From assembly GCA_037043015.1 (NCBI GenBank), contig CM073321.1, positions 1,369,001-1,433,000 of the forward strand: DNA of 64,000 bases. The letters run 5' to 3'. This stretch comes from Bryum argenteum. Taxonomy: Eukaryota > Streptophyta > Bryopsida > Bryales > Bryaceae. Positions within the stretch are counted from its first letter, which is position 1. Every line of letters starts with the position of its first letter. The notes below the pieces were generated by a model that was not told where the DNA came from, ran no database searches, and saw nothing but the letters and a program-made list of their open reading frames with translations. Position numbers and translations under genes: made by a program. This document shows positions 17,096-58,120 of the stretch, one piece after another.

Positions 17096-17104
17096 CGACC
17101 TTCC

Positions 17105-17212
17105 AGATCGCGCGACCGCCGATACAGCGGATGGGCGAACGTCGGTCACTGGGGCAATCGCCAATCCAGATGATGGGCAAACGTCGCTGAGAGGGCGACC
17201 GGCGGCAGGAAT
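17105..17212. repeat. GGCGACCG array B, unit 1
   Basis: A short array (GCGCGACCGCCGATACAGCG, then GGGCGACCGGCGGCAGG) forms the other border of the AT-rich satellite. It cuts into a coiled-coil open frame on the minus strand right after QELSHPRN, as if it were the edge of an inserted element. Counterparts lie at 20585-20695 and 24062-24178. Confidence 0.8.
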
Positions 17213-17437
17213 GTTGCGTGGGTGAGATAGTTCTTGCATCTTCTCGCGCATGCGTGCATATTCCACGGAAAGCTGGTCTCCTTCTTTCATCTTCTTCTCA
17301 TACATTGCTCGTGTTTTTTCGAGATCTGCTTGCAATCTTGCTATAGCATCGTCTTTGCTCTTCAGAAGAGCTTTGAAATCAGCAGATGTGTCAAGTTCTT
17401 CCAATGGTAAGATGCTAGTACCATGGGGCTCTACCAC
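17213..17437 (-). pseudogene. Coiled-coil gene fragment, unit 1
   Basis: The frame reads EPHGTSILPLEELDTSADF and then a heptad-rich helix (KDDAIARLQADLEKTRAMY, then SVEYARMREKMQEL) before running into array B. It has no proper ATG (it opens with GTG) and no terminator of its own, so it is a truncated fragment. Identical fragments lie at 20695-20919 and 24179-24399. It might be the start of a retrotransposon gag next to an LTR end, or a piece of an ordinary gene. Confidence 0.45.
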
Positions 17438-17695
17438 GGGTGAATGATCACTTGCTATTGAAGAGTGAGAGCCACCTATTTGAGGAACGTGGTGTGAGCC
17501 TTAAAAACCACCATGTAGGTGGCCTTTGGTCACAAGGGGTGAATTGAAGGAAATCACAAGAAGAGGGAACAATGAAGAGGAGGAGACAAGAAGAAGAGGA
17601 AAAAACAAGAAGGTAAATGAGGAGAAAACTCCCCCGCCGGATGACCTTGAAAGTGCCCCTTGGTTTTTGGGCCACCAAGTCGTCATCCTAGCTCT

Positions 17696-20600: not shown

Positions 20601-21177
20601 CCGATACAGCGGATGGGCGAACGTCGGTCACTGGGGCAATCGCCAATCCAGATGATGGGCAAACGTCGCTGAGAGGGCGACCGGCGGCAGGAATGTTGCG
20701 TGGGTGAGATAGTTCTTGCATCTTCTCGCGCATGCGTGCATATTCCACGGAAAGCTGGTCTCCTTCTTTCATCTTCTTCTCATACATTGCTCGTGTTTTT
20801 TCGAGATCTGCTTGCAATCTTGCTATAGCATCGTCTTTGCTCTTCAGAAGAGCTTTGAAATCAGCAGATGTGTCAAGTTCTTCCAATGGTAAGATGCTAG
20901 TACCATGGGGCTCTACCACGGGTGAATGATCACTTGCTATTGAAGAGTGAGAGCCACCTATTTGAGGAACGTGGTGTGAGCCTTAAAAACCACCATGTAG
21001 GTGGCCTTTGGTCACAAGGGGTGAATTGAAGGAAATCACAAGAAGAGGGAACAATGAAGAGGAGGAGACAAGAAGAAGAGGAAAAAACAAGAAGGTAAAT
21101 GAGGAGAAAACTCCCCCGCCGGATGACCTTGAAAGTGCCCCTTGGTTTTTGGGCCACCAAGTCGTCATCCTAGCTCT
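17696..21177. repeat. Tandem 3.48 kb repeat, unit 2
   Basis: Second direct copy, in the same order as unit 1. Differences cluster in the array at about 18680-19030, where several CAG triplets present in unit 1 are missing or scrambled (GTCAGAGGG becomes GTCGAGGG). Elsewhere there are only a few single-base indels, mostly in homopolymers. Confidence 0.95.
17722..18423 (-). pseudogene. Uncharacterised QRCIEV-motif gene, unit 2 copy
   Basis: This has the same sequence as the unit 1 copy, including the internal TAG at about 18058. The stop therefore existed before the array was amplified and is not a sequencing accident of one unit. Confidence 0.7.
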
Positions 21178-24100: not shown

Positions 24101-24656
24101 CGGTCATCAAAGGGCAATCGCCAATCCGATGATGATGGCAAACGTCGGCGAGAGGCGACGGCCGTGGCGAGAATGTTGCGTGGGTGAGATAGTTCTTGCA
24201 TCTTCTCGCGCATGCGTGCATATTCCACGGAAAGCTGGTCTCCTTCTTTCATCTTCTTCTCATACATTGCTCGTGTTTTTTCGAGATCTGCTTGCAATCT
24301 TGCTATAGCATCGTCTTTGCTCTTCAGAAGAGCTTTGAAATCAGAAGATGTGTCAAGTTCTTCCAATGGTAAGATGCTAGTACCATGGGGCTCTACCACG
24401 GGTGAATGATCACTTGCTATTGAAGAGTGAGAGCCACCTATTTGAGGAACGTGGTGTGAGCCTTAAAAACCACCATGTAGGTGGCCTTTGGTCACAAGGG
24501 GTGAATTGAAGGAAATCACAAGAAGAGGGAACAATGAAGAGGAGGAGACAAGAAGAAGAGGAAAAAACAAGAAGGTAAATGAGGAGAAAACTCCCCCGCC
24601 GGATGACCTTGAAAGTGCCCCTTGGTTTTTGGGCCACCAAGTCGTCATCCTAGCTC
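21178..24656. repeat. Tandem 3.48 kb repeat, unit 3
   Basis: Third direct copy. It differs from unit 1 mainly in the two GC-rich arrays (22150-22400 and 24060-24180) and by small indels near 21460-21500 that break the resident open frame. Its right end runs into the complete LTR-like block, whereas units 1 and 2 are cut there and start over, so the array arose by repeated duplication with this junction as its edge. Confidence 0.95.
21204..21902 (-). pseudogene. Uncharacterised QRCIEV-motif gene, unit 3 copy
   Basis: Homologous to the copies in units 1 and 2 but further broken. Single-base deletions near 21461 and 21501 shift the acidic tail out of frame, and a small rearrangement near 21776 (CTCATCGCCCC instead of CTACTGTCGCCC) disrupts the core before the WCHI segment. 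Confidence 0.65.
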
Positions 24657-26307
24657 GGAATCAAGCGTGCTATAGCTTTTTAGAAAGCTTACTTGATTTC
24701 CCACCTACCCTGAAAATCTCAAGAGGAAAGAGTGAAAATCCTAGGACTGATTCCACTTTGACTGTGGCAGTTTTTGCCACTGCCGGGGGGGAAAGCTTTT
24801 CCAACGCGCCAACTTTGGGAGCCAATTTCTCCTTTTTGAAAGATCGGATTGGGCATGCCATATACCCCGGAAAGCTCTCTTGGAGCTCTGTCCACCCTAG
24901 AAATCTCAACAGCATAGCAAGAAAACTCTAGGACTGATTGCTGTTTGAACACAGCTGATTTACTCACTGCCGGGGGGAAATTGTTTTCGACACCCCGACT
25001 TTGGGAGCAAATTTCTCCTTCTCTACAACTCGGATTTGAGCATGCTTACTACCGTTAGAAAGCTCTACTCACAAGTTACCTATCACAAAAGAAACAAAAT
25101 TGAGAGGGAGGTCCACCTGCCTCCCTACTCCTACTCTAACTAAGCATTACAAAGAAGAAGAGGTAGACAAACAAAATTGAGAGGGAGGTCCACCTGCCTC
25201 CCTACTCCTACTCTAACTAAGCATTACAAAGAAGAAGAGGTAGACAAACAAAATTGAGAGGGAGGTCCACCTGCCTCCCTACTCCTACTCTAACTAAGCA
25301 TTACAAAGAAGAAGAGGTAGACAAACAAAATTGAGAGGGAGGTCCACCTGCCTCCCTACTCCTACTCTAACTAAACATTACAAAAAAGAAGAGGTAGACA
25401 AACAAAATTGAGAGGGAGGTCCACCTGCCTCCCTACTCCTACTTTAACTAAACATTACAAAGAAGAAGAGGTAGACAAACAAGATATTAGACAAACAAGA
25501 TGAAGGAGAAAGAGGCCCATGGCCTTCCTTCTCCTACTTTAACTAGATTGAGCGGGTCATTACAAAGAGATGATAAACAAGCTTGGGAGCAAGGCTTAAA
25601 TACTCTTGCTCTCAAGTTTTAACCCGGCCATTTACTTGGCCGGTAACTAAGGGTAAGTACTAACAATGGAGCCAACTTGCCACCCATGCAAGGGAGCAAG
25701 TCCCATGCCCATGCTCTACCTACCACTATAAATATATAAAAGTCCCATGATCCCTCCACCATGCCACTTGGATGGAGGGTCAATGGTGGCTTCCATTGCC
25801 ACAAGGTGATAAATAATCACCATGGAAGCCAACCAACAAGGACTAACAATTTTACTAACATACAAGATATTAACCATGAGAGACCTATTGATTGTAGCTT
25901 GATCTTGTTTGTCGAAGGAGTGCCGGCTTGAAGGAAAGGGATAGCCCCCACTCTTCCCTTACCACTTTGGGCTTCAATCGTGGGGCCTTCTACTCTACTC
26001 ATCAAATCCCCACTCTTCCTTCACCACTTTGGGCTTCCATCGTGGGGCCCCTAATCTAATTGTTTAATTTTCCTACTCTACCAACTACCCCTTTTCTTCT
26101 TACCCTACTTCAATCTTCAAATTGACTCCACTTCCTCTAAAAAGTCTTCTCTAAAAGTTAATACTTTCTAACCTTCCAATTAACATTTAAGGGTTTTCAT
26201 TCAAAACCCTTAACTCCTCATACTTATATCACAATATTCAACTAACATTTGACAAAACATTAACATTGAGCCAAACAAATGAATGTTGCACATTTGTTGG
26301 CTCACAG
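24455..26307 (+). mobile_element. LTR-like block with TGTGAGCC...GGCTCACA ends
   Basis: The block begins TGTGAGCC at 24455 and ends GGCTCACA at 26307, a perfect 8 bp inverted terminus with TG...CA. It holds a TATA-like CTATAAATATATAAAAG near 25727 and a 77 bp minisatellite. Sequence after 26307 (GGTGTCGGCCATCTGGGA) could be a primer-site relative but is not a clear tRNA match. Its first 200 bp also close tandem units 1 and 2. Parts match 31467-32628 in inverse orientation. No flanking duplication is evident. Confidence 0.55.
25094..25481. repeat. 77 bp minisatellite, five copies
   Basis: Units starting at 25094, 25171, 25248, 25325 and 25402 contain ACAAAATTGAGAGGGAGGTC, then CCTCCCTACTCCTACT, and end GAAGAAGAGGTAGACAA. 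Copies are nearly identical, with a few substitutions in the last two. Confidence 0.95.
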
Positions 26308-33384: not shown

Positions 33385-34640
33385 AAGAAGAGAGTGGAAT
33401 TTGTAGTTGAAATTTTTGGATAATGGGAACGTTACTTGTGTTTTTTGCAACCCAACATTGAACTACAAAGTTAACGCAAACATGCATTTATGCACTTTAG
33501 CTACAAACCTAGAACCAAGAAGAGTGTGCAATTCCTTGTACCTCATTCTGTTTGCAGCAGATTTGCAAATTGAGGGGGCATAGTTTCCGCACGAATGATT
33601 GATGAGAACATTTACGGTGGAGATTCTACTACTGATGGTCCTTCCAAGGCAATTCCTAGTGGTTCTTCATGCCGTTTAGTTGTTTATACAGACACAGAGG
33701 GTGGAGTGAGGGGTGCAAGTCCTCATACAGGGGGAAGAGATGCGTACGTGTTAGAAGGACATGACAATCGACACTCCATATGAGAAGGCCGAGGCGCATC
33801 AAATTCCATGAGGTTCGTCGCAGCACGCTAAAGTAGCATAAAAGAATTGGATGATGAGAAAATTGGATGAAAAGTGGGCAAATTGTTTCTGTGATGCAAA
33901 TATCTCATTTGACATGGCCAAAAATCCATTTTTTATTCAAGGCGAGATTTGCTATGTTCCTTTGTCTTATCACCAGTTTGGGACTATTTTCATAGAATTG
34001 AGTAGAGTGCGAGTCGCGAAGGAGATTGAGTCTAAAACAGGATTTGCGAAAACTATGTACGGGGTGTCCATATGCACTGATGGTTGGGACGATGTTAATT
34101 GTACGCCTCTAATGAATGTGATGCTGACTTGCCCATCTGGAGATGTATTTCTAGAATGCATTGACACCAATAGGCACATGAAATTTGCGACGTATATAGC
34201 AGACATAGTCCAAGTATTCATTGTGAAGGTGGGACCTAAAAATGTGACAGTAGTGTGTATGGATAACACTGCAAATATGCTTGGAGCAATTAAATGTATC
34301 ATAGAGGAGTATCCATGAATTTTCTCGCAATGATGCATGGAACATGCTTTAGATCTCTTATTGGAAAATTGAGCAAAGATCAAGATTTTCAAGGACCTTA
34401 TTGAGAGGGCGAGGAAGTTGTGCCAATATATTAAGAACCATCATGCAACAATGGCAACATTTCATGAATTGAGTCCTAAACTATTGATCTTGGAGATTAA
34501 TGAGACAAGCTTTGCATATAATATGTTGATGTTGGACCGACTCGTAAAACTGAAGCTGGCCCTATATGAATTGAAATACCAACTCCCTGTTCGGAACTAC
34601 CCCAGTACATTGAGGGACACAATGAAAGAGGAGTAGACAG
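33385..34640 (+). pseudogene. Second hAT transposase relic
   Basis: A BED-like start (GNVTCVFCNPTLNYKVNANM near 33425) is followed after a gap by KLDEKWANCFCDANISFDMA, GVSICTDGWDDVNCTPLMNV and VVCMDNTANMLGAIK. These parallel KWASFFYKANIAFNV and the matching segments of the first hAT gene. TGA codons interrupt it at 34316-34318, near 34330 and near 34370, and TAG at about 34634 ends the frame. The hATC domain is absent, so the relic is 3'-truncated as well as decayed. It is a different, diverged hAT copy on the other strand. Confidence 0.8.
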
Positions 34641-35479: not shown

Positions 35480-35919
35480 ATGCCAAAGATGAAGAAGAAG
35501 CATGGCGCTGGGGGGACTGGGGGCCTTACGCGTGTTGCGTTTTTCAAACTGCCGCGTTGTGAGAACCCAACAAATTAGTGTAAGAAATTTCTCCGGGAGT
35601 TCATTGTAAAATTTTATGAGACCAACAGTCTTTCAAGTTTGTTCAGGTCGATATATTGAAGAAGTTCTAGAAAACCAATCGAGCGGATGATGTGGAGTTT
35701 GTGGATGTGGCATTGAGGGCGCATTGTTTTCAACGGTTGATGAGGGCGTTTTCCAATAATTCAAACCGGCGCGGCTCCATAGGATGGTGGAACTCGGAAG
35801 AAAGAAGACTACTGGAGAGTACGCGCACGAATAATTTGATAGTAATTCTTGAGACGGCCTATAATATTGAAATTAAGAAGAAGAAACACGTAATTCATTA
35901 TAATGGGAATATATACTGA
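35480..35919 (+). pseudogene. Unrecognised gene fragment downstream of the TATA box
   Basis: An ATG at 35480 opens a basic N-terminus (MPKMKKKHGAGGTGG). Stops at about 35575 and 35650 break it. A later open segment reads DDVEFVDVALRAHCFQRLMR and ends at 35919. It may be one decayed protein. No family is recognised. Confidence 0.3.
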
Positions 35920-36153
35920 TTTTGGTAATTAGGAGGACTTCCATTTAGATCGATTCTGACCTGCTTAGTTACCAAATCACTAGGTTTTTACTGATAATGA
36001 TGAATTTTCTCAATATAAAAGACAATCATAGAAAAGAATTCATAATGCAAGTTAAGAAATATGCTCCCCCAAGAGAAAATTTTATTGATATGAAAGCACA
36101 AATACAATTTATTGGTGTAATTGTAGACCTCCAACAGGTAGGCATTCTATTAT

Positions 36154-37455
36154 CTACCAATTACGACGTGGCGGAGAGGAGGTATCACCACAAGAATCTT
36201 TCTTAGTGAATACAGGGTCCTCACTACGTGTGTATTTAGAGAAGGCAGGTTCGTCCATCTCCATAAGCCCACCACTTCTACGACACTTCGGTGCACGTCT
36301 CCGTAATAGACGGTGAGTCTCAGTCGAAAATCGTGTTGGATGAACGCGAGTGTTTGCCCCAAGAGATAAGGAGCAATGAGCCACAATATTTGGCAAGGAA
36401 CTATTTAGCTCAACTCGAGCTAAATAGGCACAGCCATTGACGACGGGGTTGCGTAATATAGCTTCACCTTGGGGTGCCGCTGCAACCAAGGTCATCACAC
36501 CGATTCGATCATGGCCGGTTGCAATAATTGGTTGAATCTAAATAGGGGGACTGTCTACTACACCATCATTGTCATTATCCATGTCCTCCTTCGTGTAGTC
36601 TACAGCCGACGCGTCGTCCGGAGCACAGTAGATTAGCCGTCCCCGCATTCGTTCTCAGAAAGTTCTGGAGTCGTCACTAGTAATGGAAGCCTCTGACACC
36701 GTTGAAGGACCAATTGCAAGATTTGCTTGCAAAGCACATGATGGACGTGGAGAGAGCTGACGTCCAACAGCAACAACCTGGTTTATAAACACAGCCATTT
36801 TAGCAAGTGAGTCCAAGACACTAAGTGCAATGAAAAATGTACACAATATAACAACGCATTTAATCATGTATGTCGAGGGTGGATTTACCAATCGATCTAC
36901 AATATATCTCCATCTAAGCAACCGATAAACATAAGGTTTCTAGGATGAAAATCAGAATAATACCACTGATAAAAGAATTTAAGGCAAATTCTTCCCACTG
37001 ATTTGGTCCTGATTCCACAAATATAGAAGATTACGGCTCAAGAGCATATACAACTCTGAGTCCTTTGACAGTTCATTATGCGTGGGTCTACGATGGCGCA
37101 TAGTCTCGGGAAAATTCTCAAGACCGTTCAAATGCACAAAAAGGCATATCTCGCCTATCCTCTTTAATAAGTCGGACATTGGCTCCTCTGGACAGGAATG
37201 GTTCCACGGAACAGTGAAAAGTGTGTTCTTTGTGGGAACCGCAATGCAAGTCTCAGGCTTGGAATCGACAATGAGCAAGTTATCGTCATTGAAATTGGCA
37301 CCCTTCCTAGGATACAACCGCCGTCGAGGATATTTTAAGACGATGGGATTTGTCATGCCGGGGTACTTGGCGAATGCGTAATTCTTCAACAACAGATTAT
37401 CGCATTGGTTGGAAGCCAAGACAAGTCCAGGGGTAGCGTCTGACTTCGAGAACAA
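36154..37455 (-). pseudogene. Unrecognised minus-strand gene fragments
   Basis: An upstream open segment at 36979-37455 reads GLVLASNQCDNLLLKNYAFA, then PRRRLYPRKGANFNDDNLLI and VPWNHSCPEEPMSDLLKRIG. Another at 36655-36921 and a third at 36154-36498 follow, with gaps that could be introns or decay. The NHSCPEEP segment might correspond to the HPCEKP-like part of a DNA methyltransferase, but this is weak. A copy of the TTTAGCTCGA palindrome lies in the last segment at 36403-36425. Confidence 0.3.
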
Positions 37456-37499
37456 AAAGGAGCAGAGTCCATGGACAACCTTAGGCTCTAGGGTACTCC

Positions 37500-38060
37500 A
37501 GACGTGGATGTGGCAAATTTAGTAAGCAAAGGAACCCGGTCAACCCGGGACGACACTAGACGACCCTGCCGGCAACTAAGGTTGGGACGGTGGAGGAAAA
37601 CACCGGAGGATTATTGGGATCCGGAAAAGACAGGCACTCTGCAGGCGTTGCGGTAGACACAGAGGCCATTGAATATAGGACCCCGTCCAACTCCAACATC
37701 ACATTCAACCACTTGGGCTTGGATCGTAAAAGACTGCGGGAGATATGCGTAATGGGTAGCTCGGGCGAGATACGCTGTTTGGGATGTTTGGACGGTCATG
37801 CCTGCATTGAGGGAACACCTAACAATGGCAAATGGTATTAAAACAAGAGGGTGTGTTCCTTGCGAAATTCTGAAGTATGCAAAGAACTGCCAGCACTAAT
37901 TGGGTATTGAACCGCAACACTCAGAGGTAACATGAGGTGGTTGGCGGGGGATTTTGAAGCAATCGGACGGAACAAGGTATTCAGAAGGGGGGCCTGGTAG
38001 AAAAGGACGAAGTTTAGGGCCTTGTGATGAGAAGGACGCAGACTCACTGAAGACAATAAG
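37500..38060. other. Ambiguous open frames, no assigned gene
   Basis: Both strands carry plausible-looking open segments (plus 37590-37841 and minus 37838-38056). Neither shows a motif that lets me choose between them. Confidence 0.3.
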
Positions 38061-40168
38061 TGATGTGAAATAAAAGAGTCTCAATTTTATTGAATGATAT
38101 TTCAATAAGTACAACGATTATAAGTGTACTATGTACAAAAAGCGAAACAGCATCCAATAATTTGGAGACTACTCGTCGACCTACTCGCCGCCATCGGTGC
38201 CGGACTCCTGTCAAACAAGAAGCGCCGGCTTTAAGATTACTAAATGCGAAAACTTCAAGACATGAGGAAATAGCAGAGCAACTGCCATAACCAGCAACGA
38301 TCACAAAGACAAAGAGAAGAAAAGGATAGTAACTAACCTCTGGATTTACCGGTGAAGTTATAGCCGTCTCAGTAGCAGCCACGGGAGAGTCATTGGAAGG
38401 AGCAACCTCTGAATGCTCCCCCACATCCAATGCGACAGCAGAGGTGTGATGGGTCGGCGTCGGCGCTGCCTCAGACGGGACATCATCCTCTTTTGCCAGC
38501 TTCTCCGAAATCTCGAGGGGTATGGGGCGGGGTGCGATCTCCGGTTCAGCAACAATAACAGGTTGTGGAGGCGCGACGATTGCTGGTGGACTCGCGTCAT
38601 AGATGCTGAGGCGAGGTTGATTAGGGTTGATGGAAGCAATGGGGACATGAATACTAGGCAGTTGGGATAAGATATTTCCGAATGATTGAAACATCTGCTC
38701 CATCTTGCCCAGTGCCATGCGGGTTTCAGACTGAGAGCTCAGGAATGTGGACTCCAATCTGTCCACTCGAGCATTTGCGGCTGCAATGTCTACTAACCTT
38801 TGCTTCTCCCTCTCCGCTTCTTCCTTTACCTTGCGAGCCTTCTGCGCCTCCTTCTCTTGCCGCAACTGTGCTCGCTTCTGATCCTTCGTGAGCATAGGGG
38901 CGACAATTTCCAGCTTTACTGGTGGTTGTGAAGGCTCTCCAGGTTCCTTGGGCCCGACAAGAAGTAGAGGATCATCTTCATCGCTTTTGGGCTTTGGAGA
39001 ACTAGGCTCCTCCGAGAAGTCGTAATACCGGATTACTTTGTTATCCTCCGGCTCGTTTTCAGGCTTCCAGACCCCTTTCACAAACCATTTGTCGTACTTC
39101 CCCTTCTCAATCTGCCTCCTGGGTGCGCTCTGCGGGCATTGGGGAGGAGGCGCCAAAGTAGTCTCCCCCTGGGATGGATCAGGAGCCACCTCGTCTACTA
39201 AGGTCATGGCCGCGAGGTCAGCATCATCAGCGTGGTCATCGTCATCGCCGTCGCCATCGCTCGAACCCTCAACATCGTCATTGTTTGACGAGTCAGAGCT
39301 GTCGGATGTTGGTGCATCCCGTGGCAGTCGCTCTTGTCCAGGTTCTACATTGTCTTCGCCAAAGAGATCCCGGTAGATGTGATCATTCGAGTTCTTTGAA
39401 CGAATCTCCCTTCAAAAACCCGAGGGTGGAACCCTGTGTTGAACCGGAGTCCCAGCGTCTTAAAGATCGACGACCCCAGGAGACTGTTGGTTTAGCTCGA
39501 CTCGAGCTAAATCCTCCTCCGATAGAAGAACACGACGCACGCGCTAGAGAGGGGGGGCTCTAAATGTCCCCGACGACATCACAGGCACCATAGTTGGCAT
39601 CGAGCGCCCTCTCTGCTTGAGGCACAACAGTGCTTCTGGACCGAGTAGCCTCTCCAGCTCGCGCCTCAGAAGATAAACGCTTGGCAGATTCGCGCAGGGT
39701 GGCCTGTGCTGTACTGCTGCCATGAGACGTAGAAGACCGAGCTCGACCGCTTCCACGACCCTGAGGGGGAGCACGAGCAGAACCACGACCACGAGGGGGA
39801 GCACGAGCAGTACCGGACGGGATTGCCACCGCAGCCCAGTCAATAGCGGGAGGAGATACAAGGGGAACAGTTGAATCCATGGGGGAATTCATCCCCGCCA
39901 GAGAAGAAGGACCACCTACATCTTCACGCTCGTGCTCCGAAGCTGAAGAGTCGTCGCTTACAGGCTGAGTGGACTTCTTCTTGGACTTCCTCTTCTTTCC
40001 CTTCTCCGACCCTTCAGCAGAAGGCTTCGGACCGCGATTAGCTTCCGGATTAACGTATGCTGCGACGTTGATATCGTTGTAGTCCAGATGTTGGTAGTCC
40101 GTCGCAGCATTTGTATAAGCCTCCGCCTCGATCTTGCTGATAACAACATATGTCTCAGCCTGGCACAT

Positions 40169-40378
40169 CTGTTTTAGAAGGAGACAGAAACTTATAACAC
40201 TAAGACGAAATAGCTCGACTTGAGCTAAAAGGCCATGGACAAAATACAATGTTTGAAGAGATCTAAGCATGAGACCGTTTAGCTCGAGTCGAGCTAAACG
40301 AGCATGAGACCGTTTAGCTTGACTCAAGCTAAACGAGCTTGAGCATTTCCAATTAAAGTAATGGTGCGAGGTACTTAC
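40169..40378 (-). other. Spliceosomal intron with three palindromes
   Basis: Donor AATT|GTAAGTACC and acceptor CTAAAACAG|ATGTGCC. The intron is accidentally open in frame. It contains palindromes at 40211-40231, 40277-40299 and 40312-40334. Removing it joins PMVAGI to MCQAETYVVI, which restores the methyltransferase-like C-terminal motif. Confidence 0.75.
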
Positions 40379-41719
40379 AATTCCAGCCACCATTGGCTTT
40401 GCGCCACCCATTATCAATAAAAACTTCCCTCCCGGAGATGAGAACATCTTCAACACCCGACAGTAGAACTCCAATCGCAGCTCGGTGTCACTGAGACCAA
40501 GGTCGTGTTCTCTGTACGCGTCGGGCTTTGAGTAGAGGGGCAACTCTGGAGCGTAGAATACAGAGGGTATTGCATCCAACACACTGTGAGCATGGCTGCT
40601 CTTCTTGACAAGGAAGAGGAGGGGGAGCAAGTGCTTCTCTAAAGCTTTTCCCTCTGCAATGCCGTTGAAACACTCGTTGCTGGCAGGCATGTAGTTGGCT
40701 GCCTTGCGAGCGTACTCGTCCTTCAACTTCTTGTCGACGTAAACCACTGCCTGGCAATGACGGTCGACTTTGGAGGTGATGAACATCCAGACCTCGGGAT
40801 TCTTGATGTGAGGATCGGTCACGGTGTCTGCCCACACATCAAGGAATTCTTGGAAGTATGGACTCTCCGTGTCGTCCACTCTACTTCCACTACCAAGGAC
40901 AGATCGTAAAACAATCAAGCCGATATCACACTTGCTAGATTGGTTCCAGGCGTAGTCCTTGTCCCAAATCCCGAATTTGAATTCGGAAGAGTAAAAGTAC
41001 CGCATGTAAACGATCGGTGGAGGAGGTTCAAACGTCCCTTTGACATCCAGGAACTTGTTGAAGAACTCGGCTGCATATTCCGAAATCTCTGCTGCACTCC
41101 TATTCTTCGTTTGCTTTTGGCGGTAGAGGGGAAAGAACGAGTCGTTCGGGACCGAGAGAAGCATGGACATAGTCCGACGAGTCAGATTGTATTCCACCTT
41201 AAATTTCCTCCAGTTGTCGACGTCGAAGTGCCACTCGGAGTCGAACAAACCCAGTGAGGGTTTGAGGTTGTGCAATTCCCTCGCGACAGTGTTCTTCCTC
41301 TTTCGATTCTCGACCCACTGCTTCGCACTCATACACTGGAATTATTTCTTCGCAGGCTTTCTCACGGCCACCTTCGGGTAGGGCAACCTTCAATCCGGAG
41401 TCTCGTTCAGCAAGTGCTGCGCCAACACCTCGAGGTTCTCCGCGTCTAACTGCCCCATTCCCTTGAAGAACTCCTTGCTCAAGCTGAACTTCTTTGCGGC
41501 GGTTTCCCAATCTTTTGCCTGATTGAATGGGAGCTCGGTGTCGGGGTCGATCAGCTCTCCAATTCCGTAGTCGGTGATGAACCTCTTCCACAACTCGTAG
41601 ACGTCGTCCGGAGATGTGATGATGAGGAGCTCGTTGCGAAGGTCGGACGGTCTGACGATCTTGTCCTTCGCGTTAGTATTGATGCTGATAAACCTCTACA
41701 CCATAGCAGCCGCGAATGC

Positions 41720-41856
41720 CTGCACCAAAGCCAAACAAATAAGGAACAAGCTATGTTGTTTTAGCTCGAATCGAGCTAAAACGGCGTCCCGAAAAACGTA
41801 GACAAATAATGCGATCTAAGCCAACCAGAAATAGAATAGAACAAGTAATCTCATAC
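41720..41856 (-). other. Spliceosomal intron with palindrome
   Basis: Donor GAG|GTATGAG and acceptor TTTGGTGCAG|GCATTC join HYE to AFAAAMV in phase 0. The intron carries GTTTTAGCTCGAATCGAGCTAAAAC (41758-41782), a perfect palindrome apart from its centre. Confidence 0.75.
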
Positions 41857-41957
41857 CTCATAATGCTAACGGTTATCTACTTCAAGCGGTGTTTCACGTC
41901 GGTGTGGCTTCTTCAATTTTTGAGGGCGGCCATAGTCTTCCCAAACCTTTCTAGGGC

Positions 41958-42647
41958 CTAGGAAGGAATGAACGTGTCAGCATTGTTCGTCTTGTTCGCC
42001 ATGGCCGACACGTCCAGAATCTTGCCAATGTCGGAATGCCACACAACATGGGCTTTCCATGTCTGCAGGGCGAGGATCTTCGCCTCGTCGACCTTCTTGT
42101 TACAAATCAGCTGTTTCGCAGCCTCAACGTGGTGCTGCCCGTCGATTATACGGAACCGACAACTTTGGACCAGATCTTCCCAATCCCAAATCTCAGGCTC
42201 ATCTTTAATCTTCGGCATAATGATGATGGTTTGCCTGGAAGTAACATCGAGGGAATTCATCAAGATGTTCTTGTAATGCGCTATTCCGGCCGGTTCCAAA
42301 GATCGGACGATAAACCTTGGTTCTTCCGGGTCGAGCAGGTCGATCGACACGTCAAGCGGATTGTCGCGATTGAAGACATAACACTCTGCACAGTTGTCCC
42401 AATAGTCCTTCAGAGACTTCGTCGCTTTCTCATATTTGATCTCCTTCTCCGAGACAGCCACATTCATTGTAGGGTTAATGAACGTAAGTGCGCTGCCGGA
42501 GGATTTGCTCCTTTTGGAGCCAGAGCTGGATGAGATTGGGTTTGGCCGCTTCGATCCCTGCCCACCTTGACTTCTCTCTGGAGTGCCTAGACCCGATAGA
42601 GCATTCCCGGATGGAGCCTGCAACAGTAGACTCCCGGACCGTTTCAT
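41958..42647 (-). other. ParB/sulfiredoxin-like domain exon
   Basis: The open frame starts inside a basic/Ser linker (GSKRPNPISSSSGSKRSKS) and contains NPLDVSIDLLDPEEPRF, then FRIIDGQHHVEAAKQL. The DGQHHVEAAK segment matches the conserved D-G-x-H-R-x-x-A core of ParB-like domains, with His for the usual Arg. In phages and bacteria such domains are often fused to DNA methyltransferases; that pairing is reproduced here. Confidence 0.65.
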
Positions 42648-43149
42648 CGAAGCCTTGCCTTTCTTTTTGGCAGTTTTGAAATCAGAAAGAGCCTTCTAGA
42701 TCTCACGAAGGCTTTCGGCGAAGAAACATTGGGCAGCAATTTCGTGTCGATATGATGAAGCTGAGTGGGATTCACCTTGCCGAACATATAATTGCGGATG
42801 AAGTCGTGGGAGAAAAGGACTTCATTGGGGGGAAATACAATAGTAAAGACAAAACCTTCAACCTCCACTGCTTCGAACTTGATCAGGAGGAATTCGTTTT
42901 CATAAGTAACAAGCCCGATGAAGGCATCAAGACACAGAAGTAAAATGCCCCGTGAGACCCCGATTGTTGATAGAAGAAGAAATGTGTCTTGTTCATTGGA
43001 CGAATAGACTAAGAGTTGATGAAATTTGTCTTGGGGGTCCACAACCTCCCCCATTGCGCGTCCACAGCAATAGCTGCAAGCGGATTGTCTGCTACTTGGA
43101 GTTGTACTGGTGCAAGGAATCCCTCCAGTGCTTGCATGTTATAAGTGAG

Positions 43150-43241
43150 CTGTGCATAACAAATTAACAGAGGGCGAATTAGCTCGATTCGAGCTAAATG
43201 AACACATCAGATGGGAACATCGATATGAAGTGGAGTATTAC
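43150..43241 (-). other. First intron with palindrome
   Basis: Donor CTGAG|GTAATA and acceptor TGCACAG|CTCACT. The 92 bp intron contains AATTAGCTCGATTCGAGCTAAATG at 43177-43200. Confidence 0.7.
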
Positions 43242-43471
43242 CTCAGGAAGAGACTCTTGCTGCTCCGCTTCCATGTCGACTTCGATTTCAGGCTCGGCAG
43301 GTGCATTCGCAGCCATCTGAACAATTCTGGCACTTTGTTTGGTTCTCGGCATCACTGTCATTCAACAAATGAGAATCACATGTAAGATTCACAAGGGCAG
43401 TAGAACATCGTCATTATCTTGACGATCAAATCCGGGAAGAACTTTTACATGTCTTGTTTAAGTGGCGAGAT

Positions 43472-43810
43472 CAATTAGCTCGAGTCGAGCTAAATGGGCT
43501 TGACCTCAAAACGAGGATCGAGACCATGTAGCTCGTGTCGGGCTTAATATGCATGATCCTGAACCTAATAGTAAGTCCATTTAGCTTGGCTTGAGCTAAA
43601 TGGGCTTGACCTGGATCAGAGCAGTAAGCCCATTTAGCTCGAGTCGAACTAAATGGGCTTACTACCTTGTTGCAGGTCAAGCCCATTTAGCTCGACTCGA
43701 GCTAAATGGGCTTGGTGGTCTTGGAGATAAATATTTTAATGAAGTTATATTGGCATCGAGCTAAATGGGCATCAAGCTAAATGGGCATCGAGCTAAATGA
43801 GCACCGAGGT
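43472..43810. repeat. Cluster of TTTAGCTCGA-TCGAGCTAAA palindromes
   Basis: Four clear palindromes (near 43472, 43578, 43629 and 43683), a degenerate one near 43527, and half-sites CATCGAGCTAAATGGG in series at 43755-43815. They are linked by GGGCTTGACC-like spacers. The cluster is 120-460 bp upstream of the ParB-methyltransferase start. Single copies lie in that gene's introns and at 39491 and 36403. Confidence 0.85.
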
Positions 43811-44029
43811 AAATGAGCTGAAAGTTGAATATGAGCACATTTCAACAGCAAAATACAAATTTTGAAGCGAAAAACACAAATTGGAAGACCTCTATTACTC
43901 CGCGAGCAACATTCCATAACATTGTGCCCTGCAATGTACTCAAAAAGCTATCAAAATGCAAAATCAATCGAAAACCTAAAAAACCAGAATGAGCAGCTTA
44001 CAATGTCGTCAAAAAATGCGATGAATGGT

Positions 44030-44520
44030 GGGGCGCAGCAGTAGAACGCGCGGCGTGGGGAGAGAAAGAGAAAGAAGCACACGAAGAGTGCAAGAATGCG
44101 CGGAGGAGCACAGGAATGCAAGAATGCAAGTCGGAGAAGAAGACGCAGGAGGAGCCCAATAACAGGTCGCTGGGAGAACAAGTCGGAGAGGAGGACGCTG
44201 CACTGCGGAGAGCAAGTCGGAGAGGAGGAAGGCGCTGCTGCGGAATAGAGCTGCGGAAGCGGGTTGCGGAAGAGCTGAGGAAGGCTCTGCTGCAGAAGAG
44301 CTGCGGAAGAGGGCTGCGGTTCGGGGGAGCAAGTCGGAAAGCAGGAACCGCTGAAAAGTGCTGGGGCTGCGAGAGAGAGAATGGAGGGAAGCATGCCCGA
44401 TCCCGCCCTCTTTGAGCCCGCCCTATCGGAGCCCGTCCGCTGCCTTTCTGCTTGGTGCCCGGGCTGCCCGGACTATGGCGGCCTCCTTGGGCTGCCCGGG
44501 CTGCCCAGGTTGCTAGTTTT
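44030..44520. other. GC-rich low-complexity region
   Basis: Repeated AGAGCTGCGGAAG and GCTGCCCGGGCTGCC words make long open frames on both strands that look compositional. No gene is called. Confidence 0.5.
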
Positions 44521-45239
44521 TTTTATTCAAGTTTTTTTTATTATGTATTTTATTATTATTATTATTTTTATTTTTTTTTCATTTGTTTTTGTTTTCTCAA
44601 ATTGAATTACTTTAGTTCATTTCAGTAGTCAAAATTTAAATTAATTCGTAAGAAATCAAAATAAAGTGAGAAATTTTTTTTTAAAATCGTAGTGTAATTA
44701 TCCTATAAAAATGATAGTGATATTCATAACATTTATAACTTCTGTAAAACAAATCTATACGCTATGAGTTTTTTGCAAACATTTCAATACATTCAAACTT
44801 TAAATAATAAGTGAATTTTAAATAAATATATTACAAGAATAGGATTGTTGTACTTGCATTACGCTATACCGTTCGTAGTTACAAAACTGCAATAATTAGA
44901 AAAATATCATTATAGAAGTAACGAATCTACATGTCAACATTTACAGAAACTCTGCTAAGTTTGAATAGATATATGATTATCAGTGCTCAAACACCTAAAA
45001 AAGACAATATATTTGTGATACACGTATTAAAAATATTATATACTAGAAAAAACTATGTGTAGAAAGAAAATGAGTATTGAATAATTTGTCAGAATTTAAA
45101 GTAAGTAAAAACAACAAATGTAGGCGCAAAAAGAGAGTGTAAGTGGTTTTTATAACTTTAATAGAAAATAAATTCTTAATTATGTATTTGTCTGAATTAC
45201 TAATTAAGTTGTAAATAAAATCTGATTCAATCTTGAATA

Positions 45240-45296
<57 letters not shown>

Positions 45297-48200
45297 AGTA
45301 TAAAAGATGTCTACTTCAGCTTTCTTATAGATCATGAAAGCATGATGTTCAAAGATGAAAAATAAATCTTTTTTCGATTCTTGCATAATGATTTTGATAT
45401 ATTTCGTGAACCCAAAAAATCATTTTCAAAAGATTTCTAAAGTAGAGTATTTTCCATTTCTTATTTATATTGAGTTTGCAACGTCCTCTTAGAAAATAAC
45501 TTTAACCCTGCGATATTATGATCTCTAAAAAACATTGCTCTTTTACATAGAAATATGAGAAAATTGATTTAAAATTTGAAAAAACTAAATTTACAGTTTT
45601 CTATAAGTTTCAGCACTTTTTCCAAAAGAGATAATTTTAGACAAACTTTGAATTTATTTTAGCATATATTGCAGTTCTGTGCAATATTCACGATCATTGT
45701 TTTAAAAGAGCCTCAAACCTTAACTCCTAATGAATGGTGAATTGTGAAACATGTATGCCTTCTTTAGATTCGTTAGCCAATTCTGAGGCTCCCTCTTCAG
45801 CATAAAATTTGTTCTATTGTCAGTTATTGTTCAATTGAATGTATGAACAAGTAGTGATCACGTGTAAATTGCAAAACAATAATTACCATTAATTTAAAAT
45901 TACCTGTTGATAATTCATGAAATTCATAATTATTTATTGAATTATGTTTTTTAGATCTTTGTAGATGTTCCTAGATTTTGTACATGTTGTTTAATCTTAA
46001 ACTTATTTAAATATGAGAAATGAAACAGTTTAATTTAATTAGAACCAAACATGTCAGTTATCCTTAAAGCAGCAAGGTAGACTCGAAATATCGCATGTTT
46101 CAATTTGTCACTATAAAAGTTATAAACAATATCAAATACAAATATTTACCTACCTGATCTAGTAAGTTACCAATGGTAAAGATATTGGATATATTATAGA
46201 TTGATAACCATACTATGTACATGTTTAAGCCTGTGTTCTGTTTTCAAATGCACTTTAGGTACACCCAAGAACTGAATACGAATCCCAAGTGATTCTAGAA
46301 ATCTAATTTTATCATTTTATTTAAATTAGTGCATAGAACTAAAGTCCAATTAAATTTACATATAATCCGCTTATTTATGTTTAAATATTAAATTCAAAAG
46401 ACAAATCCCAATGGAATCTTAGAAATCTAATTTCATGATTTTATCAAAATTAGTGAATGGAACCAATGTTTATACAAGTAAGATCTTATTATTTATAATT
46501 TTCATTAGTGACGATCATAATTCAGGAGGAAAACTTTACGCCCAATGTAATGAGCGAGATTGTAAGATTTGAATCATACAAGAAGAACCACTTGCGCTTC
46601 TACTACATCGCTTTCTATTCCGATTGCTTACATTTCTTAAAAGAAATATGAGGGACGACACGGAACTTGTCTTAAGTTTCAATTTGGTGCGTAAAGTTTG
46701 AAGCAAACACTCGAACGTTTTGCATTCTACCATGTTCAATGAAAATCAGCGCTGCTTTCTTATTGCTTAGGAGCTGTTAGATTCATAAAAGTACAACGCT
46801 TTTTGTTACAAAGTTTGCGATTTCGCTGCTGCCACAACAAATACACATAAGCAAACCTAAGATTCTCAAGATTGTAAGGTACGGAATTACAGAAAAAGAT
46901 TTTCGATTGTTCATACACAGCTCTGATTAGTAAAACACGCTCGATGTTTGATATACACCGTTGCTGATGTAATGATTGTATAATTTACCTTTATTACATT
47001 ATTATCTTCTATTATAACAAAATTTTATAAGATCCTAAATCTATTGTAAATGTTATAATATTGTAATTTATTGTTGATAGATAGTTGTCCACGATTGTAT
47101 GGACAGAACATGATTTAGGTATATTTAATATATTATGGTTTAATATCACATAATTTAACATGATATGATATAATAATATTTATTTTAATATAATTTAATA
47201 TAGTAAAATAGAATATATAAGCATTTTCCGTAATATTTAATATACATTTATAAGAAATACATTTTCATATAGTATAATATAGTAAAATAAAACATATTAG
47301 TATATTGAATAAAAATTAATATAGTTCAATATAATATAATAATTAATTTGATTTGATATAGGTTAAAAAACTATAAAACTATAAAACTATAAAACTTTGT
47401 GTAATGTAAACCGGCCATTTGAAAAATTCATAGTAATTATTTATATTCACTACTGCGAAAGTAAAGGGTTTCCAATGTTACAAACATTGCTTACTTGGAC
47501 ATTCAATGTTTCATTGCATCATTGCAAACCTCCCTCTTTCCGAGTAGTGATTGCAACACTGAAACATGAAATCTGATCAATCAAATATTGTTGAAAATTT
47601 GAGAAAATTCTCGCATTCTTTCCTATACCACAACTTGTAATATACGCCTAACATTATAATAATTTTAACGTAGTTTAATAAGTGGTAATTTTTTATTTAA
47701 AACTTGGTTTAATTATTTTTTTTACATTTTCTTTTAATTATTTATTCTACAAAACAATTTAATCTTGAGATTCTTAAAAAATTTACGTAATACTAATAAA
47801 TACCTTTAACTAGTTTTCCTCAAAAATTATATAGTGTTCGACAGAAGAATTCTAATATTTATGTTTTTCGATATTTTTCCATCGATACGGATTGGAATTC
47901 AAAGTAACTACCAGACAAGTTTATAATCTTTTATAGTGTAGTAGTTATGATTCAAAGTTAAGTGTTTAGGGTTAAGGGTTTAGTATAGAATTTAAGGTTT
48001 AGAGTTTACGAATTAAGATTTTGGTTATAGTGTATAGGGTTGAGGATTAAGGGTTAATTAATTTTGAAGATAATGATTTAGAATTGAAATGTAAAGAGAA
48101 GCTAGATAGCAACTTTGTGGAAGAAAGCGTAGATGCGGATACATTCTAAATTTTTGAAAACAAGTTTAGAATACCATACTATAAAAATCATCTTAGCATA

Positions 48201-49410
48201 AGAGTTGAAGTAAAACTAAATATTATTAAGTTTGAATATCACACATAGAATATTAAACCTGTAAAATATATTTACTCACTGAATGTTAACAAGACTTAAT
48301 TCTAAACCAATAATTATATATTTCAAATATCATATATGGTAATAATACACTTGAAAAAGCTAAGTATTAAACTTATAATTCCTCAACTTATTCACTGTCT
48401 AAATACTTATATAATAGTATCTCACATAAATATATTGAATATTGTGTTTACAATATGCATTTGTAAAATACCACATTCAACCTATTGAATATCATACTTA
48501 ATATAGCATACCTAATTAGGTAGAAACTAATCTTATAGAATCACATTTAAAAAAACTCAATATTATATTTACTATAAGTGTTGTAAAGTGCAAAGTATTA
48601 GTCTTTTAATATTACACGTATTTTAGTAAGTGCGAATGTTACAATACCTCACATCACCTGTCGGTTTTGATAAATTGAGCATAAACGCTAGACATAAAGG
48701 CTTAGCGAATGATAATAGCGTCCATCATTTCACATGCTAATTCACCAAAATAAACCTAACAATTGTTAGAGTTGAGATATGGAAGTAATGCAAATAGATT
48801 CACATAATTTCACTATAATTCTACTCTCCATTTGATACTTTATCACAGCTCTATGCACTCAAACTCTTCAAAGTCCTGCGCACTCAATTTAGTATGAAAT
48901 AAAATAAAATCATTCAAGACTACATCAATCCAAGGTACACGACGAGAACAATTCTTGTTCCCTCTAAACATTTAATAAGTTAGTATAAATTTCATGTAAT
49001 TTAATCATTTTCTATTTTTCTCCCTATTCTCTATTTAAGGTAATCTTGTAAACTATGGTTCAAATAACAAATGACACTATCTCTTTAACAACTAGATTGA
49101 AGTTTCTTTTTCTCGTTGTGTAGTCGGATGAATTGTGGTAAACAATGTTTGCAACAATGGTAAAAGTATTACTATTAAAGTTATTGATTTATAAAATATC
49201 AAACGTTAAGTTAGTTATGGTCTAGGGACTAGAGTTTTTCATTACGGTTTTATGGTTTGATGTAAACTTGACTAATTTCCAATAAAATAGAAGAGGTGTC
49301 TTCACTAAAGTGCATTCCATTGATTCATACTTTATTGCAAAGTTTAGAATACAAACTAGACTTGATTTGGAGCAAAACCCAAGTGATTTCATCCAAAACG
49401 GACGTTGCTA
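44521..49410. other. AT-rich gene-free tract
   Basis: About 4.9 kb of AT-rich DNA with only very short open frames. A TA-dinucleotide run, TA-rich degenerate repeats near 47110-47360 and degenerate TTTAGGG-like words near 47955-48060 are its only features. Confidence 0.6.
45242..45294. repeat. (AT)n microsatellite
   Basis: An uninterrupted alternating A/T run of about 53 bp. Confidence 0.98.
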
Positions 49411-54103: not shown

Positions 54104-57100
54104 ATGAAGTTGCACACCATTGCTGTCAAGATATTGCAGGAAGAAGAAATCATGGCGGATCTTCTCGAGAATGAGGTGCCGGTGGAAAGAGCAAGAGAGG
54201 AGGTCGTAGAAGATTTAGAGAATGTGAGTTCTCAGTCCTCAGCTTCAAGTCTTTTCGCCGAATTTTACACAGAATATTACAAGGAGTATCATTCTCCCGG
54301 AGAAGCAATCAGAACAAGGGCGGAGATGGAGCGATGGTACTACAAAAAATTCTTGGTATGTTTTGCAACCTTAGATAAGAACCCTAATTTTGCTACCTGC
54401 ATTTCGAATATGCTTGTCTATGGGAATTTAGAGAGAGCACGCACAGGGCGTAGCGCAGTAAAGGCTCCTTCCTTGGCTCGCCGATGAAGCCTCTATGTGC
54501 AGGAAGTTGCGGGCTGAGGCGATGCCGATGAAGCCTCGTGTGTGCAGCAGGTTGCGGGCAGAGGCAATCTCATCGTGCTGAGAACCAGCTCGTTGAGGAG
54601 GAGGCCCCTGCGTCGGCCATTAGACTTTCATTTTCGAGCACGAGCTGGGGTACACCACGAATGTTTGGGAATCCATCGTGGTTTTGATTTTCTTTTTCGT
54701 GATTTGCTCGTCTCTGTTGTTTTCAACATGGCTGGTCTGTACTCCTTCCTCCTGGTCGCCGATGAAGCCCGTGTCTGCAGATGGTTTTGGGCTGAGGCAA
54801 TGCCATCCTGCTGAGATCCAGCGGATTGAGGAGGTGGCCCCTGCGTCGGGCTGTAGCTTGCAATTTTGAGCAAGAGCTGGAGTACATCTCAGACATTCGT
54901 CGACGAATGTCTAGGGCCCCCACCATGATTTTGCTTTTCTTTTTCACACTCCGAACTCTTTGCTGGATATGTTGGTCATTCTTGTTTTGTACATGGCTGG
55001 TCTGTGCTCCTTCCTCGTGCTCGCCGATGAAGCCCACGTGTGCAGATGGTTTTGGGCTGAGGCAATGCCATCATGCTCAGATCCAGCGGCTTGATGAAGA
55101 GGCCCCTGCGTCGGGCACTAGCTTGCATTTTCGAACGGGAGCTGGAGTCCATAACAGACTTTCGTCGACGAATGTCTAGGGCCTCCACCGTGAATTTGCT
55201 TTTCTTTTTCCCACTCCGAACTCCTTGCTTGATTTGCTGGTCTTTCTTGTTTGGAACATGGCTGGTCTGTGCTCCTTCCTCGTGCTCGCCGGTGAAGCCT
55301 ATGTGTGTAGATGGTTTTTGGGCTGAGGCAATGCCATCATGCTGAGATCCAGCGGCTTGATGAGGAGGCCCCTGCGTCGGGCACTAGCTGGCATTTTCGA
55401 GCAGGTGCTGGAGTCCATATCAGACTTTCGTCGACGAATGTCTAGGGCCCCCACCGAGATTTTGTTTTTTTTTTCCCACTTTGAACTCCTTGCTCGATTT
55501 GCTGGTCTCTCTTGTTTTGAACATGGCTGGTCTGTGCTCCTTCGTCGTGCTTGCCGATGATGCTCATGTGTGCAGATGGTTTTGAGTTGAGGCAATGCCA
55601 TCATCCTGAGATCGAGCGGCTTGATGAGCAGGCCCCTGCGTCGGGCACTAGCTTGAATTTTCGAGCAGGAGCTGGAGTACATATTAGACCTTCGTCAACG
55701 AATGTCTAGGCCCCCACCGTGATTTGGCTACTTTTTTCACACTCCGAACTCCTTGCTCGATTTGTTGGTCATTTTTGTTTATACATGGCTGGTCTGTGCT
55801 CCTTCCTCGTGCTCGCCGATGAAGCCCATGTGTGCAGATGGTTTTGGGCTGAGGCAATGCCATCATGCTGAGATCTAGCGGCTCGAGCAGGAGGCCCCTG
55901 CGTATGGCACTAGCTTGAATTTTTGAGCAGGCGCTAGAGTCCATATCAGACCTTCGTCGACGAATGTCTAGGCCCCCACCGTGATTTTGCTTTTTTTTTT
56001 CCCACTCCGAACTCCTTGCTCGATCTGCTGGTCACTCTTGTTTTGAACATGGCTGGTCTGTGCTCCTTCGTCGTGCTTGCCGATGATGCCCATGTGTGCA
56101 GATGGTTTTGGGCTCAGGCAATGCCATCATGCTGAGATCCAGCGGCTTGATGAGGAGGCCCCTGCGTCGGGCACTAGCTTGCATTTTCGAACGGGAGCTG
56201 GAGTCCATAACAGACTTTCGTCGACGAATGTCTAGGCCCCCAACCGTGAGTTTGCTTTTCTTTTTCACACTCCGAACTCCTTGCTCGATTTGCTGGTCTC
56301 TCTTGTTTTGAACATGGCTGGTCTGTGCTCCTTCGTCGTGCTCGCCGATGATGCCCATGTGTGTAGATGGTTTTGGGCTGAGGCAATGCCTTCATGCTGA
56401 GATCCAGCGGCTTGATGAGGAGGCCCTCCGTCGGGCACTAGCTTGCATTTTCGAGCGGGAGCTGGAGTCCATATCTGACTTTCGTCGACGAATGTCTAGG
56501 GCCCCCACCGTGATTTTGCTTTTCTTTTTCACACTCCGAACTCCTTGCTCGATTTGCTGGTCTCTCTTGTTTTGAACATGGCTGGTCTGTGCTCCTTCGT
56601 CGTGCTTGCCGATGATGCTCATGTGTGCAGATGGTTTTGGGCTCAGGCAATGCCATCATCCTGAGATCCAGCGGCTTGATGAGGAGGCCCCTGCGTCGGG
56701 CACTAGCTTGCATTTTCGAACGGGAGCTGGAGTCCATAACAGACTTTCGTCGACGAATGTCTAGGCCCCCAACCGTGAGTTTGCTTTTCTTTTTCACACT
56801 CCGAACTCCTTGCTCGATTTGCTGGTCATTTTCGTTTATACATGGCTGGTCTGTGCTCCTTCCTCGTGCTCTCCGATGAAGCCCACGTGTGCAGATGGTT
56901 TTGGGCTGAGGCAATGCCATCATGCTGAGATCCAGCGGCCTGATGAGGAGGCCCCTTCGTCGGGCACTAGCTTGCATTTTCGAGCGGGAGGTGGAGTCCA
57001 TATCAGACTTTCGTCGACGAATGTCTAGGCCCCCAACCGTGATTTTGCTTTTCTTTTTCACACTCCGAACACCTTGCTCGATTTGCTGGTCTCTCTTGTT

Positions 57101-58120
57101 TGGAACATGGCTGGTCTGTGCTCCTTTGTCGTGCTCGCCGATGATGCCCATGTGTGCAGATGGTTTTGGGCTCAGGCAATGCCATCATGCTGAGATCGAG
57201 CGGCTTGATGAGCAGGCCCCTGCGTCGGGCACTAGCTTGAATGTTCGAGCAGGAGATGGAGTACATATCAGACCTTCGTCGACAAATGTCTAGGCCCCCA
57301 CCGTGATTTGGCTACTTTTTTCACACTCCGAACTCCTTGCTCGATTTGCTGGTCATTTTCGTTTATACATGGCTGGTCTGTGCTCCTTCCTCGTGCTCTC
57401 CGATGAAGCCCACGTGTGCAGATGGTTTTGGGCTGAGGCAATGTCATCATGCTGAGATCTTGCGGCTTGATGAGGAGGCCCCTGCGTCGGGCACTAGCTT
57501 GCATTTTCGAGCGGGAGCTGGAGTCCATATCAGACTTTCGTCGACGAATGTCTAGGGCCCCCACCGTGATTTTGCTTTTCTTTTCACACTTCGAGGAGGA
57601 GGCCGTTGTGTAGGGCATTAGACTTTCATTTTCGAGCAGGAGCTGGGGTTCACTTGAGAGTGTCGTCTACAAATGTCTGGACTGAGTCGGACGGTTTTGT
57701 GTTTTTTTTTATTTTGAACTCCTTTCTTCAATTTGCTGGTCTGTGATATTTGAAAATGGATGGTGTGCGAGGATACTCGGGTAGTGGGGGTTGCTGGTAC
57801 TCGCCTTTTTTGATCTATTTTACGTGGGAATTGAAGCAAGTCTAAATGAATTTGTTAAGTATTAAACTTATAACAATGGCTGATTTTATTGGTTTCCTAA
57901 TCGGGCAGCGTAGGGGCTTTTTTTTATAGAGGTAGTTTCTATATTCTGTGTTGTTGTACATGTTTGTTGATAATTGACCTACCATTGGTTTCTTGTGATT
58001 TTGCAGGTTCCAAAAATGCGAAAGAAAATTGAAAGAGAAGAGGTTTCTGATGCAAATAGTGACCTTTCCGCATTGAGAGAAAATAAGAGATTTGTTTCAG
58101 CTCAAGGACCCTCCAATTGA
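54104..58120 (+). CDS. Gene Y, first copy, two exons around a satellite intron
   Basis: Exon 1 is 54104-54355 (84 codons), from the ATG conserved with the second copy (HTIAVKILQEEEIMADL), through an acidic region to EMERWYYKKFL. Donor TTG|GTATGT. Exon 2 is 58007-58120 after TTGTGATTTTGCAG, encoding VPKMRKKIEREEVSDANSDL and ending SAQGPSN, TGA. Splicing is in phase 0, giving 121 residues, acidic then basic. The intron holds the 265 bp satellite. Function unknown; exon pairing is inferred from phase and splice sites. Confidence 0.5.
54480..57700. repeat. Satellite array of about 265 bp units inside gene Y intron
   Basis: ATGGCTGGTCTGTGCTCCTT recurs at about 54728, 54994, 55258, 55523, 55785, 56050, 56312, 56578, 56842, 57107 and 57368. 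Units also share CGATGAAGCCCATGTGTGCA and the palindromic TTCGTCGACGAA. Outer copies are more diverged than inner ones. The unit length is not a multiple of three, so the long open frames across it on both strands are unlikely to be genes. Confidence 0.92.

Follow-up and report, generated by a model that had tools for sequence, protein, structure and literature searches.

Why should the moss Bryum argenteum carry a spliced gene in which a ParB-like domain is joined to a DNA-methyltransferase-like one? The question is raised by a stretch of 64,000 nucleotides (contig CM073321.1 of assembly GCA_037043015.1, positions 1,369,001 to 1,433,000; hereafter the window, to whose own numbering all coordinates refer), for which a preliminary description had proposed such a gene. 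It belongs, as an accessory gene, to a giant transposon with terminal inverted repeats, and the explanation that we consider the probable one is that the encoded protein recognises the palindromes of its own element and serves in anti-silencing or transcription control, with a histone H3-like tail engaging H3K4 (histone H3 lysine 4) proteins. The observations suggest a transposon that marks and un-silences itself.

The two peptides quoted in the preliminary description were recovered where it had placed them, FRIIDGQHHVEAAKQL within the minus-strand open reading frame (ORF) 42695-41958 and SSPGGKFLLIMGGAKPMVAG within the minus-strand ORF 41341-39560, and its joining of the two regions into one gene also held. 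A single spliced minus-strand gene spans 43361 to about 38180. A read-through query retrieved 8 relatives, and profile searches built on the alignments of these raised the number to 26, all of which have their tblastn matches to the window confined to 43152-40211 (E ≤ 1e-3). The exon bounds below were drawn from the ORFs and splice signals of the window sequence together with the end points of the relatives' matches.

43242..43361, minus strand: exon 1, M(TVM)PRTKQSAR..., a histone H3 tail-like N-terminus (ORF and AG/GTAATA donor in the window)
41857..43149, minus strand: exon 2, N-terminal domain and ParB/sulfiredoxin (Srx)-fold domain, with stops and frame changes (tblastn with the relative P0006 and others)
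41978..42440, minus strand: ParB/sulfiredoxin-fold core with the motif IDGQHH, about residues 244-398 of P0006 (AF2 and fold searches)
40379..41719, minus strand: exon 3, a helical region followed by the methyltransferase-like domain (about 41023-40379)
40168 to about 39600, minus strand: exon 4, beginning of the low-complexity tail (acceptor and ORF; also in other copies; end estimated)
about 39435-38338, minus strand: exon 5, acidic tail (ORF, donor and acceptor by eye; tail in other copies too)
38207-38181, minus strand: last short exon, with AATAAA near 38090 (by eye)

The tail, a putative coiled coil in the preliminary description, is acidic and charged over 39411-38344 as judged by eye. 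A plus-strand ORF at 42680-42943 was ruled out as a gene, being the reverse of the conserved exon 2. Exon 3 is 78% identical to the relative P0001 across 451 residues, with 3 stops (tblastn); in total, exons 2 and 3 of the window copy carry 7 in-frame stops and 3 frame changes against P0006 and P0001, and because of these the window copy is a pseudogene. The damage had been anticipated, as had the existence of intact relatives: at least 93 ParB-exon matches were found in the same genome as the best scored of 1040 candidates, such copy counts being minimum values, since scoring was confined to the best candidates, and 12 of the 14 ParB exons fetched from same-genome copies (nine of clade A, four of clade B and one of clade C of the gene) contain no stop. 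Purifying selection is indicated by a dN/dS (ratio of means) of 0.21 within clade A (36 pairs) and 0.15 within clade B (6 pairs); between clades no value was obtained, as dS is saturated. A viral origin was also considered and set aside, as three protein scans and one palindrome scan found no relative in the viral_contigs collection, which may omit the window's own genome.

The nature of the carrier was established from a complete copy (C3:1915844-1938157) of 22.3 kb, which holds 41 palindromes (≤2 mismatches) of the kind described below and ends in 28-bp terminal inverted repeats, 26 of 28 positions identical, with TAAT flanking both sides in this one complete copy; of a second copy one end was covered. 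Sola1 transposons make a 4-bp target duplication. The complete copy also carries a DUF7869 gene (E 1.2e-38), the putative transposase gene, oriented opposite to the ParB-like gene, and, downstream, the NIF-phosphatase-like gene treated below (E 0.011, below the cut-off). The window holds a partial copy only, without any DUF7869 match inside the window:

35885..49403, minus strand: partial transposon copy, from the 3' terminal inverted repeat to a break at another repeat
35885..35912, plus strand: terminal inverted repeat AACACGTAATTCATTATAATGGGAATAT, 1 mismatch against that of the complete copy

Its 3' end is shared, since all 39 other listed matches to window 35500-36300 begin at query 375-388, and two other copies, aligned mutually and with the window, stop at the same 3' end point. 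At 49403 the window passes from the element family into a repeat that is present without the element in loci L043-L045, where no empty site was demonstrable; 49403 was rejected as the true end of the element, given that the complete copy runs on to its DUF7869 gene and the flank in the window is another repeat. The two genes lie near each other more often than under random placement: at least 29 of 71 DUF7869 copies (72 listed, two being pieces of one copy) lie less than 20 kb from a scored ParB exon, 28 of them divergently, against a mean of 3.9 and a maximum of 12 near ParB rows in 1000 runs of random DUF7869 placement; among the matches listed, 42 of the 71 are without a ParB row within 20 kb. 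At 5011-6582 of L041, two inverted-repeat ends of the family face outward about 1.5 kb apart, perhaps belonging to neighbouring copies. By our own tally, contig C1 (44.09 Mb, 17% of the assembly) holds 75 of the 93 scored ParB-exon rows, and 64 of the 95 rows of the search with P0020, many with stops; our guess is a sex chromosome or some other chromosome rich in repeats.

What the element's noncoding DNA contains became apparent from the translated introns, in which a recurring peptide proved to be the trace of a 21-bp palindrome, TTTAGCTCGANTCGAGCTAAA, present in the intron-derived residues of 4 of the 26 relatives (P0001, P0002, P0003 twice and P0018). Twelve sites at ≤5 mismatches occur in the window, all inside 36404-43706; 11 are at ≤3 mismatches, a threshold at which 20 mononucleotide shuffles gave none, and the 8 at ≤1 mismatch all lie outside exon matches. 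Across the genome there are 5878 exact sites, the reversed-pattern control giving 0.

43474, 43527, 43580, 43633 and 43686 (to 43706), unstranded: upstream array of five palindromes before the start codon, exact 53-bp pitch, 0 to 4 mismatches against the consensus
43178..43198, unstranded: palindrome in intron 1, 1 mismatch
41760..41780, unstranded: palindrome in intron 2, exact
40209, 40278 and 40313 (40209..40333), unstranded: three palindromes in intron 3 (scan with mismatches)
39491..39511, unstranded: palindrome between exons 4 and 5, exact
36404..36424, unstranded: palindrome in the downstream gene region, 1 mismatch

The same layout (≤3 mismatches) recurs in all nine clade-A loci of 10 kb, each with an upstream array of 8-30 sites, mostly at 52/53-bp pitch, one site each in introns 1 and 2, and 2-7 sites in intron 3, mostly at 35-bp pitch. 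Arrays also lie 5' of the DUF7869 gene in both copies examined (L011, 8 sites; L046, 12 sites). Over the loci of all clades, 570 of 580 motif sites at ≤1 mismatch, a count in which six loci nested in others contribute some sites twice, fall outside the exon high-scoring segment pairs (HSPs) of tblastn; the 10 inside are all of clade D and probably reflect HSP ends extending into introns, P0026 having residues upstream of the exon. Past the 53-bp array, at 43753-43815 of the window, about four tandem half-sites of the TCGAGCTAAATGGGCA type are visible by eye at about 16-bp pitch.

Within this genome, different palindromes occupy equivalent kinds of places in other clades of the gene. The palindrome TTTAGCTCGANTCGAGCTAAA (M1) is found in clades A, C, E and F, mostly extended to AGTTTAGCTCGANTCGAGCTAAACT in clades E and F (L035-L038), while in clade C (L021) M1-type sites comprise one exact, one at 1 mismatch and five at 3. 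Clade D, about 40% identical to P0020, has TTCAACTCGANTCGAGTTGAA and close variants (M2) in 11 of 11 loci (L025-L034, L040), which are without M1 or M3, and M2 has 875 exact genome sites, the control giving 0. Forms of TTTAGGT..ACCTAAA (M3) occur in clade B (L020, L022, L023, L039), whose ParB exon is 53-54% identical to P0006; one degenerate form gave 122 forward and 133 reverse exact genome matches, with 1 and 0 in the controls. Stray sites at ≤1 mismatch are limited to a single M2 in each of L012 and L037 and a single M1 in L023. When the three motifs are mapped on a third-exon tree with 27 labelled rows, 2 changes suffice, the fewest possible, while the mean after shuffling is 10.5. This result is to be read with the caveat that two changes are few, that most rows are near copies and that the tree omits five of 32 loci, which gave short matches.

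The start of the protein varies by clade as well. Exon 1 reads M-TV-M-PRTKQTAR in clade A (PRTKQSAR in the window), M-ARTKQTAT in clade B and M-ARTRTTAR in clade C, and the ARTKQTA of clade B is identical to residues 1-7 of histone H3. Of the 12 clade-A copies seen, that of the window among them, 9 have PRTKQ[TS]AR; in the other three, N replaces K (L009), the sequence is RTKHTAR (L006) or the start is broken (L017). All 5 clade-B loci have ARTKQTA; no H3-like start was found in five searched loci of clades D, E and F. Exon 1 can end at an AG/GTA donor in all 10 copies tested, and past the H3-like residues it differs between clades A and B. With start codon, methionine removal and splicing as predicted, the protein would present the ARTKQTAR-like N-terminus of an H3 tail mimic. 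The match is short and would prove nothing alone, yet it is too exact to dismiss.

As to the folds, the interpretation given in the preliminary description is partly supported. AF2 block means of pLDDT 60-86 across residues 251-390 of P0006, together with fold searches, assign a ParB/Srx (ParB-CTPase) fold firmly in the models. No match to the expected ParBc profile (PF02195) was obtained, the profile matches being weak (PHROG ParB-like in 5 of 11 members, best E 0.064; PF14072 DndB in 2 of 11, best E 0.15). Exon 3 has an AF2 mean pLDDT of 70.5. For the second domain the VIA list of the fold search holds methyltransferase-type entries only, and the models assign a methyltransferase fold weakly, the permuted order of the beta-class amino-methyltransferases being the candidate. 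Searches of PDB sequences with A2, A3 and P0027 gave nothing significant and a search of NCBIfam with A4 nothing relevant. The gene had further been taken for an element-borne DNA-modification gene, of which the first half stands: a catalytic [DNS]PP[YFW] (DPPY-type) motif is present in 0 of 36 rows of aligned copies (a set that excludes five of 32 loci with a best HSP under 300 aa), D[LF]RxxPG occupies its position in 32 of the 36 (exceptions W, L031, L032 and L038), and by eye [AGST]GxK stands in place of the FxGxG of motif I. The domain is probably methyltransferase-derived, with its catalytic motif lost and a role as a scaffold for DNA binding or dimerisation.

This type of gene, a domain pair within a transposon, is already known. 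Sola1-1_Ec32 of Ectocarpus has an accessory gene with ParB-like and DNA methyltransferase domains, predicted to make 4mC or 6mA (PMC12477816); judged from the available part of that account, by description and not by sequence, the two share the domain types, residence in a giant transposon (21.5 kb in Ectocarpus, 22.3 kb in the moss) and an orientation opposite to that of the transposase gene (putative in the moss), but the enzyme is predicted to be active there whereas the catalytic motif is gone here, and the palindromes, H3-like tail and NIF-like gene (see below) of the present element are not described in that part. A 2025 survey, as far as its available text goes, reports ParB folds in bacteria, archaea, phages and eukaryotes and, on mobile elements, phage fusions of a ParB-CTPase fold to an N6_N4 methyltransferase domain (PMC12704722), from which the present gene differs in being eukaryotic and spliced, with a methyltransferase domain that lacks the motif and has no significant profile match. 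The literature searched yielded a single report of the domain pair in a transposon and nothing on the palindromes or H3-like tail of this gene, and, in the portions available, nothing on palindrome-protein co-variation, catalytic-motif loss or an NIF-like partner.

For the role of the palindromes the closest parallel is VANC of the Arabidopsis VANDAL elements, as documented in the accessible parts of the sources. VANC21 binds a motif that its own element repeats in tandem, both upstream and within introns (PMC5735166), and both binding and loss of methylation have been demonstrated (PMC5735166, PMC10398659). The present element likewise repeats its own motif in its noncoding DNA: in both systems the protein is element-encoded, the motif is tandem in upstream and intron DNA, mainly noncoding, and motif and protein change between families; in contrast, a ParB fold and a 21-bp palindrome are seen here against a 9-base motif there, the comparison again being one of descriptions and not of sequences. 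The available account of VirB, a ParB-like anti-silencer of a bacterial plasmid that counteracts H-NS, provides a bacterial precedent, alike in its way of working only, for a ParB-type protein opposing silencing from specific sites. From the VANC-like layout and the VirB precedent we therefore propose palindrome binding, perhaps as a clamp, an element held open, and the H3-like tail as effector. The ParB-like protein would most likely recognise the 21-bp palindromes of its element, whose concentration upstream of the divergent genes and in introns would mark its sites of action; perhaps loading there as a clamp, it may hold the element's chromatin open or control its transcription, and the H3-like N-termini, brought together in many copies at the arrays, may engage or occupy readers or erasers of H3K4. 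The proposal starts from the element, the gene architecture, the folds (ParB firm, methyltransferase weak), the arrays, the co-variation of site and protein and the N-terminal sequence, and to these it would add palindrome binding, anti-silencing and roles for the H3-like tail and the NIF-like gene.

A more specific form is put forward only tentatively, namely that a ParB-derived protein nucleates on parS-like arrays while its H3 mimic decoys or recruits H3K4 readers, writers or erasers to the exclusion of the DNA-methylation machinery, site and protein co-evolving apparently separately from VANC. No earlier description of such ParB-derived anti-silencing was found for a eukaryotic transposon in the literature searched. 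If true, a eukaryotic ParB-like protein would have thousands of genomic sites, protein and DNA being paired clade by clade, and sequence-specific anti-silencing by transposons would be known in a second form; the paired motif switches would allow direct tests of specificity, and the H3-like N-terminus would offer a concrete entry to communication between a transposon protein and chromatin.

Other explanations should be given fair weight. ParB proteins load on palindromic parS sites, and with arrays also present 5' of the DUF7869 gene, the palindromes might serve transposition, replication or segregation, bound by the DUF7869 protein or by a ParB-like partition-type clamp, with the gene aiding mobility and not chromatin. 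We regard this as unlikely, as the arrays of the one complete copy occupy internal positions next to genes and within introns, and its outermost single sites are 421 bp and about 540 bp away from the two ends. Slippage expands tandem repeats, and exclusion from exons is expected of any repeat; the palindromes could accordingly have no connection with the ParB-like protein, being either host-factor targets or tandem repeats that spread by themselves and are tolerated in noncoding DNA. Clades A, B, D, E and F all have sites both upstream and within introns, most of them exact palindromes, and switches in motif sequence track the protein tree, which renders this account highly improbable.

It is also quite improbable that the protein is an active ParB-guided methyltransferase which, as has been proposed for the Sola1 gene of Ectocarpus, modifies its own element with N6-methyladenine or N4-methylcytosine. 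The shared two-domain build and opposite-strand position in that giant transposon, with its predicted 4mC or 6mA in the part of the account available (PMC12477816), and the methyltransferase-only VIA list speak for it, but the DPPY-type motif is missing from every row and the altered motif I points the same way.

Downstream of the ParB-like gene lie the remains of another element gene:

36979..37895, minus strand: second element gene, NIF/SCP-phosphatase-like, recognised by the same gene in L010 and clade E

Its two pieces in the window have no Pfam match; the corresponding gene matches NIF with E 0.011 in L010 (below the cut-off) and 8.8e-15 in clade E (L036), and dullard-like and FCP1-like NCBIfam matches are both below their cut-offs.

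Elsewhere in the window, Gypsy-type retrotransposon ORFs (by eye) and pieces of hAT transposases (DUF659, Dimer_Tnp_hAT) occupy 1-7270, 11425-12822 and 33842-34318, and a unit of about 3.47 kb is present in about three tandem copies at 14550-24931, with the same ORFs at 14550, 18025 and 21505. A G+C-rich block of repeated GGGCTGCCC-like units at 44020-44510 precedes about 5 kb of DNA that is mostly A+T-rich and extends to 49403. Finally, a tandem repeat of about 264 bp extends over 54900-57600, most of its units containing a palindrome like CAGACTTTCGTCGACGAATGTCTA, which is unrelated to that of the element.

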